The notes below the pieces were generated by a model that was given only the letters and a program-made list of their open reading frames with translations, did not search any database and was not told the DNA's origin. A DNA stretch of 64,000 nt. It comes from an uncultured Paracoccaceae bacterium (GTDB taxonomy: Bacteria; Pseudomonadota; Alphaproteobacteria; Rhodobacterales; Rhodobacteraceae). Location of the stretch: positions 1 through 64,000 of the forward strand of contig CALMJS010000012.1 in NCBI GenBank assembly GCA_937864535.1, given 5' to 3'. The position numbers and the translations under genes are program-made. Positions within the stretch are counted from its first letter, which is position 1, and every line of letters begins with the position of its first letter. Positions 33,489-38,250 of the stretch are shown here, piece by piece.

Positions 33489-34703
33489 ATGCCCCTTTCT
33501 CCGCTTGCTCCTGCCGCTTTCCCTGACCTGCCGGTGATTGAAGGCGTGCGTTTTGCCTCTGCTATGGCAGGTGTGAAATACCAGAACCGGACCGACGTTA
33601 TGTTGGCCGAACTGGCCGAAGGCAGCACCGTCGCCGGTGTCTTTACCCGCTCGGCCACTCGTTCCGCTAACGTGCTGGATTGTCAGGCCAAAAACGGCAA
33701 GACGCAGGCGGGTCGGGCCGCGATTATTGTAAACTCGGGCAACTCGAATGCCTTTACGGGTGGGCGCGGCGTCGAAGCCGTGGCCGCCCTGTGTGCCGGC
33801 GTTTCCGAACAGACCGGCATCGCTGCGGACCGGATTTTCACCTCGTCCACTGGTGTGATCGGTGAACCCCTGCCCTACGAACGCATCACCGCCAAGATCG
33901 GCGAGCTGAGCGCGAACCTGAGCGCTGACGGCATTGCTGGCGCGGCCAAGGCGATCATGACCACCGACACCTTCCCCAAGGGATCTGCGGCAGAAATCAC
34001 CGTTGATGGTAAGCCCGTTCGGATCGCAGGCATCGCCAAGGGATCTGGGATGATCGCCCCGGACATGGCAACGATGCTGGTTTACATCTTTACCGACGCC
34101 CTGATCGGCTATGAGGCGCTACAGGCGGTTCTGTCGGGCCTGACCGATAAGACATTCAACTGCATCACCGTGGACAGCGATACGTCGACCTCTGACACAC
34201 TGGTCATGGGGGCAACCGGCGCCTCTGGCGTCGATGTCACCGGCAACGCGGACTTTACCGCCGCGCTGCACAAGGTCATGCTCGACCTGTCGCATCAGGT
34301 CATCCGTGACGGTGAAGGCGCGACCAAGTTCGTTGAAATCCAGGTCACCGGGGCTGCCGACGACGCCGATGCTAAACGCGTCGGGATGTCGATTGCGAAC
34401 TCGCCCTTGGTCAAGACCGCCATCGCCGGCGAGGATGCCAACTGGGGCCGGATCGTTGCGGCTGTCGGGAAATCCGGCGCGGCTGCAGATCGCGACAAAC
34501 TGTCGATTCGGTTTGGCGACATCACCGTTGCGGAAAACGGCTGGCGTGCGCCCAACTACTCCGAAGCCGACACCAGCGCCTATATGAAGCGTCAAGAGTT
34601 GGTGATCGGAGTCGATCTGGGGATCGGAACCGGCGCATCGACGGTTTGGACCTGCGATTTGACCTATGAATACATCCGCATCAACGCGGATTACCGCTCG
34701 TGA
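33489..34703 (+). CDS. argJ: Bifunctional glutamate N-acetyltransferase/amino-acid acetyltransferase
   Basis: 404 aa; KGSGMIAPDMATMLVYIFTDA autocleavage-site region. Confidence 0.97.
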   Translation: MPLSPLAPAAFPDLPVIEGVRFASAMAGVKYQNRTDVMLAELAEGSTVAGVFTRSATRSANVLDCQAKNGKTQAGRAAIIVNSGNSNAFTGGRGVEAVAALCAGVSEQTGIAADRIFTSSTGVIGEPLPYERITAKIGELSANLSADGIAGAAKAIMTTDTFPKGSAAEITVDGKPVRIAGIAKGSGMIAPDMATMLVYIFTDALIGYEALQAVLSGLTDKTFNCITVDSDTSTSDTLVMGATGASGVDVTGNADFTAALHKVMLDLSHQVIRDGEGATKFVEIQVTGAADDADAKRVGMSIANSPLVKTAIAGEDANWGRIVAAVGKSGAAADRDKLSIRFGDITVAENGWRAPNYSEADTSAYMKRQELVIGVDLGIGTGASTVWTCDLTYEYIRINADYRS

Positions 34704-35104
34704 GTCGCAAGGTCATTCTGGTATCAGCGGTCGCGCTCATCGATGTCGATGGGCGCGTACTGCTGGCACAACGGCCGGAGGGTAAATCTCTGGCCGGGCT
34801 CTGGGAGTTTCCCGGCGGCAAGGTCGAACCGGGTGAAACCCCCGAAGAGGCGCTCATTCGGGAACTGCACGAAGAGTTGGGGATCGAAACCTGGAACTCT
34901 TGCCTCGCGCCGCTGACCTTTGCGAGCCATAGCTACGATGACTTTCACCTTTTGATGCCGCTCTTCGCTTGCAGGCGCTGGAATGGCACCCCGCAAGGCC
35001 GCGAGGGGCAGACCCTCAAATGGGTCAGGGCGCAGGATTTGCGCGATTACCCCATGCCGCCGGCTGATATACCATTGATACCGATACTCCGCGATTGGCT
35101 CTAG
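34700..35104 (+). CDS. mutT: 8-oxo-dGTP diphosphatase, MutT family
   Basis: 134 aa; Nudix box GGKVEPGETPEEALIRELHEELGI; 4-nt overlap with argJ. Confidence 0.92.
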   Translation: MSRKVILVSAVALIDVDGRVLLAQRPEGKSLAGLWEFPGGKVEPGETPEEALIRELHEELGIETWNSCLAPLTFASHSYDDFHLLMPLFACRRWNGTPQGREGQTLKWVRAQDLRDYPMPPADIPLIPILRDWL

Positions 35105-35183: not shown

Positions 35184-35315
35184 ATGTATCAAACGATCAC
35201 CATCGGTAGCAGCCTATCGATCCAAGGCATTTTCGTTTCAAACGCACCGGATGGACGCGTGGTGATTCGGGTCGATGATCGGACATTTGTCGGAAAACCA
35301 GTCAGAAAAGCCTGA
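35184..35315 (+). CDS. Small protein (43 aa), tandem paralogue 1; not in ORF track
   Basis: MYQTITIGSSLSIQGIFVSNAPDGRVVIRVDDRTFVGKPVRKA*; same length as, and 18/43 identical to, the ORF at 35468. Confidence 0.75.
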   Translation: MYQTITIGSSLSIQGIFVSNAPDGRVVIRVDDRTFVGKPVRKA

Positions 35316-35349
35316 CCGCGCTGATAAAAACGGTCTCTTTTGCCTATAT

Positions 35350-35379
35350 TTGTAACGCCGCACCGCAGAAACGTTACAA
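35350..35379. promoter_or_regulatory. Inverted repeat, candidate operator or stem-loop
   Basis: TTGTAACG-N14-CGTTACAA perfect 8-bp arms between the two 43-aa ORFs. Confidence 0.5.
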
Positions 35380-35391
35380 TGTGTCAAGAGT

Positions 35392-35419
35392 ATGACGGTT
35401 TTTCTATGCATCCTATAAT
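35392..35419 (+). promoter_or_regulatory. Putative promoter of the second 43-aa ORF
   Basis: ATGACG-N16-TATAAT; exact TATAAT -10 at 35414-35419. Confidence 0.5.
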
Positions 35420-35467
35420 TGTTGGTGCTACAAAAAGCTTAGCGATTAAGCTGAAAGGTCCGCGAAA

Positions 35468-35599
35468 ATGCTGAAAACGATCACAGTTGGGAGCTGCGTT
35501 TCTGTGCAGGGGCTTTTTGTTCGCCAACTCGATAATGGACGAATCATCGTCGATGTCGGTGGAAAAACCTATGAAGGCAAGCCGGCTTCGCGCCAGTAA
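35468..35599 (+). CDS. Small protein (43 aa), tandem paralogue 2; not in ORF track
   Basis: MLKTITVGSCVSVQGLFVRQLDNGRIIVDVGGKTYEGKPASRQ*; GAAAGG RBS-like sequence upstream; many I/V/L, K/R, F/Y exchanges relative to paralogue 1. Confidence 0.78.
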   Translation: MLKTITVGSCVSVQGLFVRQLDNGRIIVDVGGKTYEGKPASRQ

Positions 35600-35633: not shown

Positions 35634-35667
35634 AAAAAAACCGGAGCAGGATCTGCTCCGGTTTTTT
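35634..35667. terminator. Bidirectional intrinsic terminator between small ORF 2 and infB
   Basis: AAAAAAA-CCGGAGCAG-GAT-CTGCTCCGG-TTTTTT: 9-bp GC stem flanked by A- and T-tracts. Confidence 0.9.
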
Positions 35668-35694: not shown

Positions 35695-38250
35695 TTACAG
35701 GCTGCGCTCGACCTCTTCGCGTTCGAAAATTTCGATGACGTCGCCGGGGCGGATATCATCGTAGTTTTCAAAGGCCATACCGCATTCCTGACCGGAAATG
35801 ACCTCTTTGACTTCGTCCTTAAAGCGCTTGAGGGTCTTGAGCGTACCTTCGTGAATAACCACGTCGTCACGCAGCAAACGCACGCCAGCCGAACGACGCG
35901 CCACGCCTTCGGTGACCAGACAGCCAGCAACCTTGCCAACGTTAGAGACCTTGAACACTTCCTTGATCGCGGCATAGCCGATGAAGTGCTCGCGGACTTC
36001 GGCAGAAAGCAGACCCGAGGCAGCCTTTTTCACGTCGTCCACGAGGTCATAGATCACCGAATAATAGCGGATCTCGACGCCCTTCTGGTTGGCGCTGTTA
36101 CGGGCCGGTGCGTTCGCACGAACGTTAAAGCCGATAACCGGGGCACCCGAGGCTTCGGCCAGACCAATATCGGTTTCGGTGATCGCACCAACACCGTAGT
36201 GCAGGACGCGCACGCGCACTTCGTCGTTGCCGATCTTTTCCATCGCCTGGACGATTGCTTCGGCAGAGCCCTGAACGTCAGCTTTGACCACGATCGGCAG
36301 TTCAGCAACGTTCTGATCGGCTTTGTGCTTGGCCATCAGCTGATCCAGCGTCGTTGCGGCACCGGCTGCTGCACGCTTTTCACGGGCGGCATGGGCACGG
36401 TAGTCCGCGATTTCGCGGGCCTGCGCTTCGGTCTCAACCACGTTCAGCACGTCGCCAGCCTCTGGCGTACCGTTCAGACCCAGCACTTCGACCGGAACCG
36501 ACGGACCGGCTTCTTCGACGCGGTCGCCCTTGTCGTTGATCAGTGCGCGGACCTTGCCCCACTGCTCGCCCACGACAAAGATATCGCCGCGCTTGAGAGT
36601 GCCGTGCTGGACCAGAACGGTCGCAACAGGACCACGGCCCACGTCTAACTGGGCTTCGATGACAGCGCCCTGAGCTGCGCGGTTCGGGTTCGCGGTGAGT
36701 TCCAGAATTTCCGCCTGAAGCGCGATGGCTTCGAGCAGGTTATCCAGACCCATGCGGGTTTTGGCCGAAACTTCGACGGTCTGGACGTCGCCGCCCATCT
36801 CTTCGACAACCACTTCGTGTTGCAGCAGGTCTGTGCGTACCTTGGTCGGGTTCGCATCCGGCTTGTCACACTTGTTGATGGCGACGATCATCGGAACCTG
36901 CGCGGCCTTGGCATGCGCAATGGCTTCGACGGTCTGCGGCATCACGGCGTCATCGGCGGCAACAACCAGCACCACGATATCCGTGACCTGAGCACCGCGA
37001 GCCCGCATCGAGGTAAACGCAGCGTGGCCCGGCGTATCGAGGAACGACAGAACCGATCCCGATTCGGTCGTGACCTGATAGGCACCGATGTGCTGGGTGA
37101 TCCCGCCAGCTTCGCCGGACACAACGTTCGCCTGACGGATCGCGTCGAGAAGCGAGGTCTTGCCGTGGTCAACGTGACCCATGATCGTGATAACCGGCGG
37201 ACGCGGCAGCAGGTTTTCGGGCTTGTCGACTTCGGTCTCGATCGCCTGTTCTACGTCGGAGTCAGACACACGCTGCACGCGGTGGCCGAATTCCTCGATG
37301 ATCAGTTCGGCGGTATCGGCGTCGATCGACTGGTTCTGGGTGGCCATAATGCCGTTCTGCATCAGGACCTTGACCACGTCAGCCACACGCTCGGCCATCC
37401 GGTTTGCCAGTTCGGCAACCGTGATCGCTTCGGGCAGCTGGACGTCACGCACGATCTTTTCGCGCTGTTGCTGACCGCCCATCGCCTTTTGACGAGCACG
37501 CTCTTGTTTGCGCTTCATCGCGGCCATCGAACGTTGACGACCACCTTCGCCACCGGCGAGAGCGTCATTGAGCGACAGCTTGCCCGAACGACGGTTGTCA
37601 CCTTCGCGGCCCGGCTTGGCCTTGACGACCTTTTCGCCACGCGCGTCGCCGCGATCGCGGTCAACCTTGCGCGGACCGGTCGAGGCGACATCACCACCCG
37701 CCGTCGTGCCGCGACGGTCATCACCGGCTGCCTGAGGGGCAGCCTGCTGGGTCGCAGCGGGCGCCTGACGCGCGGGCTTGGGTTCGACTTCTTTGGCCTT
37801 GCGCTCGGCAGCGATACGGACAGCTTCTTCAGCTTCCTTTGCCTTGCGCTCTTCTTCTTCCTGCTTGGCACGCAGCGCTTCTTCGCGCTCACGTTCCTCG
37901 CGTTCTTTGGCTTCCACCTCTAGCCGGCGACGCTCGCGCTCTTCTTCGCGGGCCTTTTCGTCGGCTTCGCGCTTAGCGGCTTCGTCGGCTTCGCGGGCCT
38001 TGGCCATCGCCAAGGCTTTCATCCGGCGTTCCAGTTCGGCATCAGAAATGCCGGCCGGGCGCTTGGACGGATCCCCAGCCAGCGGAGACCCGCCAGCGGG
38101 CTTGGCTCCGCCGGGCTTGGGTACAACAACCCGCTTGCGCTTGGTTTCCACCACGACATTCTTGGTCCGGCCGTGGCTGAAGCTTTGCTTCACGTTTCCA
38201 GAGCCGCCGCTACGAATGCCAAGGGGTTTTTTACCGTCGTTATCGCTCAT
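35695..38250 (-). CDS. infB: Translation initiation factor IF-2
   Basis: 851 aa; [28 protein letters not shown] motifs and charged N-terminal region. Confidence 0.99.

Follow-up and report, generated by a model that had tools for sequence, protein, structure and literature searches.

A tandem pair of 43-residue proteins between mutT and infB and their family in the Rhodobacteraceae

Pos19, a small protein of Rhodobacter sphaeroides whose gene lies on chromosome 2 with cxp and fadB on either side, is driven by RpoE and is confined to strains of that species (PMC5036791). By fold, the described proteins that come closest are the biotin ligases (BirA), which carry an SH3-like C-terminal domain (BPL_C), and the Sm, Lsm and Hfq proteins, which combine a helix with a five-stranded barrel. 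The DNA analyzed here, a window of 64,000 nucleotides from an uncultured Paracoccaceae bacterium, likewise encodes small proteins in a relative of R. sphaeroides. We find it nearly certain that these two tandem open reading frames are duplicates within a genuine translated family of approximately 40 to 50 residues that none of the searched libraries describes and that is, as far as tested, restricted to the Rhodobacteraceae.

The tandem pair and its family

Copy 1 (35184-35315) and copy 2 (35468-35599) both lie on the forward strand and consist of 43 codons plus a stop, as a first-pass annotation of the DNA letters had read them. In a conserved neighborhood, they follow mutT (NUDIX; 34700-35104, forward strand) and face the convergent infB (translation initiation factor IF-2; 35695-38250, reverse strand). 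A recount again gave 18 identities over the 43 ungapped positions; when copy 2 was shuffled 20,000 times, the maximum was 12 identities to copy 1, and no shuffle reached 18. Copy 2 retains the family consensus GSCVSVQG, including Cys at position 10, where copy 1 has Ser and most of the family has Cys. A consensus scan places a candidate sigma-70-like promoter of copy 2 at 35392-35419 on the forward strand (TATAAT at 35414-35419, with ATGACG 16 bp 5′ of it) and a strong 15-pair hairpin terminator 3′ of the ORF at 35635-35667 (forward strand), and GAAAGG lies approximately 10 nt 5′ of the copy 2 ATG; all three elements had been picked out in the earlier reading. These matches suggest that copy 2 may be expressed independently. 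Because the hairpin is near-symmetric and also lies 3′ of infB on the opposite strand, it may terminate infB as well.

Copy 1 alone, used as the query in 60 related genomes, recovered clear homologues in many genera of Rhodobacteraceae without the aid of a profile. A family profile was then built from 27 homologues, the window copies among them; its matches to copies 1 and 2 begin at the same Met, with E-values of 2e-21 and 9.5e-24, respectively. The profile matches 269 of 397 Rhodobacteraceae genomes, sampled at about one per genus (396 genera). These homologues, with their conserved reading frame, make chance untenable as an explanation of the pair, in agreement with the first-pass annotation. 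The gene is missing from approximately one-third of genera and is thus dispensable over evolutionary time. No convincing match was found outside the Rhodobacteraceae in a class sample of 387 genomes, and matches in a phylum sample of 299 genomes came solely from this family, which points to a taxonomic restriction within the range covered. A weak class-level match (G740) was dismissed as antisense to a longer ORF. One record titled Exiguobacterium profundum (L115) carries a Rhodobacteraceae locus and looks like a mislabeled metagenome bin.

No model in Pfam, NCBIfam or PHROGs scored above cut-off for the family, and Rfam returned sub-threshold matches only, all over the terminator hairpin. DUF5983_N (PF25638) gave a weak Pfam match in 3 of 63 members (best E 8e-4); membership was rejected, copy 2 scoring 16.3 bits over 23 residues against a cut-off of 27. 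A text search of the literature did not find the peptide, nor anything relevant on small proteins near infB or mutT. Some members may already be entered as "hypothetical protein" in NCBI protein records. The protein was apparently missed by annotation because it is only 43 residues long.

Synteny was surveyed at 80 named loci; because a pattern close to the N-terminus served to choose them, conservation in that region is inflated. When flanking ORFs were clustered, 55 of the 80 loci had argJ upstream, 45 had an ORF in the mutT position and 52 had convergent infB, whose median distance downstream of the mini-protein ORF was 90 bp; loci without these neighbors were cut by contig ends or missed by crude ORF calling. 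The usual setting, which the window pair shares, is between mutT and convergent infB, mostly as a single copy. In genomes without the gene, infB follows mutT by 16 to 196 bp or the neighborhood is rearranged, indicating that the gene can be lost. Synteny by itself tells little about function.

Within the window genus, two tandem copies occur in the window genome and three others (the nearest named one being Marivivens donghaensis, L097), one copy occurs in two genomes, and none in two, one of which is an 87% complete assembly. At copy 1, two same-genus genomes show 65% identity. In a phylogenetic tree the copy 2 sequences cluster with a support of 0.77 and one unrelated sequence intruding; the copy 1 sequences group with low support, unsurprisingly for proteins of 43 residues. 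In one genome (G005) it is copy 1 that has Cys at position 10 and copy 2 that lacks it, so this residue cannot serve to tell the copies apart. The distribution is most simply read as a single duplication within the genus, followed by losses.

All 81 copies examined start with ATG, their lengths range from 43 to 52 residues, and in 55 of them at least 6 of 8 positions match TGGGGAGG upstream. Close pairs have dN/dS values mostly between 0.00 and 0.07, with a few between 0.1 and 0.3. Over 714 more distant pairs (dS 0.1-1.5) the median is 0.26, in a range where the method saturates; the very low values are thus confined to close pairs. Visual inspection of an alignment of Sulfitobacter loci agrees: most changes are at third positions, and the conserved elements flanking the ORF are limited to an inverted repeat, the ribosome-binding site and the terminator. 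The low dN/dS of close pairs, far below 1, argues that the mini-protein is very probably translated in vivo; no value near 1 was seen. The idea of a duplicated, diverged and translated micro-protein, advanced by the first-pass annotation, is borne out by these comparisons. Out of that reading's sight were the family's wide and normally single-copy distribution, the duplication within the genus and the fusion described below.

The Sulfitobacter inverted repeat lies in the promoter region. Eight loci (L079, L092, L095, L099, L107, L114, L123 and L126) share a conserved GAAACAAT approximately 70 nt upstream of the match, followed in most by an ATTGTTT-like arm approximately 20 nt after it. The repeat may be a regulator site; an exact search for it in three genomes returned the locus's own site only.

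Further free copies lie outside the chromosomal setting. They occur on Paracoccus plasmids, and a diverged free subfamily on Sulfitobacter plasmids (L182, L183, L184 and L036; Tyr at position 10, an FVRAL motif, no listed gene) adjoins mannose-1-phosphate guanylyltransferase or other polysaccharide genes. Nine free plasmid copies, one of them a fragment, have no gene listed beneath them in a collection whose gene table is incomplete. Scans of a viral contig collection gave no match with alignments A2, A5 and A6 and two prophage-like contigs with A7, each carrying a 42-residue copy (L258:4001-4126 and L259:4001-4126) beside tail-like and lysis-like genes, roles that were assigned by eye.

Predicted fold and fusion to sulfate-binding proteins

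AlphaFold2 predicted four strands even without an alignment. Supplied with 63 homologues, it reached a pLDDT of 92.7 and a pTM of 0.68, with strands in copy 1 at residues 2-7, 11-20, 26-30 and 33-39 and no helix, in keeping with the small all-beta fold that had been proposed from the residue pattern. A Foldseek search against solved structures returned nothing at E < 0.001, the best E-value being 0.2, and the single-sequence model was uninformative in this search. The highest-ranking matches are consistent: biotin protein ligases come first (with a probability as high as 0.96, TMq 0.51-0.65 and E 0.2 or worse), followed by Sm, Lsm and Hfq proteins. As no single match reaches significance, the barrel assignment rests on this run of related weak matches, which supports, short of proof, a small SH3/Sm-like barrel. 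A sequence search of solved structures returned short weak stretches only.

In approximately 25 of the 397 genomes, the substrate-binding proteins of sulfate ABC transporters begin with the same module at their extreme N-terminus, and a Ponticoccus plasmid encodes a divergent relative likewise in frame with a sulfate-binding protein (fused loci L035:3001-3204, L181:2001-2120 and L186-L205). The approximately 25 cases, from about as many genera, were counted from long open frames, and 20 were retrieved. Each of these 20 has its hydrophobic signal core downstream of the module, starting at residue 45-69, and then the mature protein with the motif LNVSYDPTRE. Two plasmid fused proteins were assigned to TIGR00971/NF008022. 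Compared profile to profile, fused modules and free family match at E 5e-19, and dN/dS of the fused modules is mostly 0.08-0.43, with one pair at 0.60. The annotated start of the sulfate-binding protein includes the module in Thioclava; in Ponticoccus alexandrii it lies downstream of the module and thus omits it, and some annotated start sites of these proteins appear to be wrong. No sulfate-binding protein scores above the family cut-off in the window genome, and a literature search on extended signal peptides of sulfate-binding proteins returned nothing relevant.

Free and fused forms have in common a start at residue 1, T4, Q14-G15, D/N23-G24-R/K25, G37 and P39, residues that suggest a shared fold or site. 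Sequence ahead of a signal peptide normally stays in the cytosol, and the module is therefore most likely cytosolic in both settings.

Possible roles of the module

As an overall explanation, we favor a duplicated, translated family that acts as a cytosolic mini-barrel adaptor, and hold it with confidence evenly balanced for and against. Each protein would form a small cytosolic domain of four beta strands, similar to an SH3/Sm-like barrel, and its surface would bind a common cytosolic partner or another copy of itself. Such an adaptor would act in trans when made as a free protein at the mutT-infB locus, and in cis when the module precedes the signal peptide of a sulfate-binding preprotein; in the latter case it would stay in the cytosol, still attached to the signal peptide once this is cleaved off. 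The mechanism proper, binding to protein or self-association, is tentative, and we rate it as possible rather than probable. The main rival casts the free form as a small RNA-binding protein, an Hfq/Sm-like mini-barrel whose basic surface contacts RNA and which would adjust translation or the fate of RNA. Most free members have Arg or Lys at positions 3, 19, 25, 29 and 33, the family pI has a median of about 9.5-9.8, and Sm and Hfq proteins are among the nearest folds. Yet the net charge is modest, at about +1 to +2, those fold matches are weak, and LSM and Hfq models gave no sequence match among the 63 members scanned. The fused modules, moreover, are near neutral, with Asp or Glu at position 29 in 13 of 20. 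A basic RNA-binding face is thus not shared by the module in all its forms, and for this reason we prefer the protein-binding or self-associating adaptor; RNA binding by the free form appears somewhat doubtful.

Three further readings are less probable. A translated leader or regulatory ORF, in which translation matters and not the product, would suit the sulfate operons, where the coding region begins with the module, in cis and in the same frame. The infB-linked form, however, has no nearby downstream gene on the same strand, because infB converges on it, and strong amino acid selection together with a confidently predicted fold makes this account improbable. Nor does a convergent position at a median of 90 bp from infB make a convincing case for an antisense or 3′-end regulatory RNA of infB with an incidental ORF: synonymous sites diverge and amino acids do not, Rfam has no match near its gathering score, and neither the fused copies nor those on plasmids lie close to infB, so that we find it hardly credible. 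The copies on plasmids and on two prophage-like contigs, and a 57-residue protein in a viral structure library that shares 45% identity with copy 1 across 42 alignment columns, might instead indicate a mobile accessory gene that confers a trait connected with phages or plasmids, for example defense. Nearly all strong matches with flanking DNA nevertheless occupy one fixed chromosomal position between housekeeping genes, and phage records searched with natural family sequences gave no match at a meaningful E-value; a mobile gene is accordingly very improbable. Returning to the adaptor, one could extend it to a lineage-specific cytosolic recognition module, free and ahead of signal peptides, through which export or supply of a nutrient-binding protein would be coupled via a shared partner to the free infB-adjacent protein. 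We regard this extension as rather unlikely.

Significance and comparison with known systems

The family adds a strongly selected protein to most genera of a major bacterial family, including close relatives of the model R. sphaeroides. Its fusion to sulfate-binding proteins is the first handle on the function of the mini-protein; folded domains seldom precede a secretion signal, and this arrangement makes function testable in sulfate uptake, a phenotype that is easily measured.

Of known proteins, the biotin ligases are the best Foldseek targets, and the matched part is probably their C-terminal SH3-like domain, judging from the 40-residue match length and its all-beta type. BPL_C itself had no Pfam match at E 0.1 among the 63 members scanned, and the mini-protein differs from the ligase domain in that it stands alone or precedes a signal peptide. 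A mini-protein segment, ITVGSxVxVQG, resembles part of the OB-fold protein PriB, at a nonsignificant E-value of about 0.7 over 15 residues. With the Sm, Lsm and Hfq proteins it shares small size and a basic character, the near folds in the weak Foldseek matches being Caulobacter Hfq (6gwk) and an archaeal SmAP (6tfl), whereas it is shorter than these and is predicted to have four strands and no N-terminal helix. The mini-protein appears to represent a new family of a known kind, the small beta-barrel microprotein, in an unusual place before a signal peptide.
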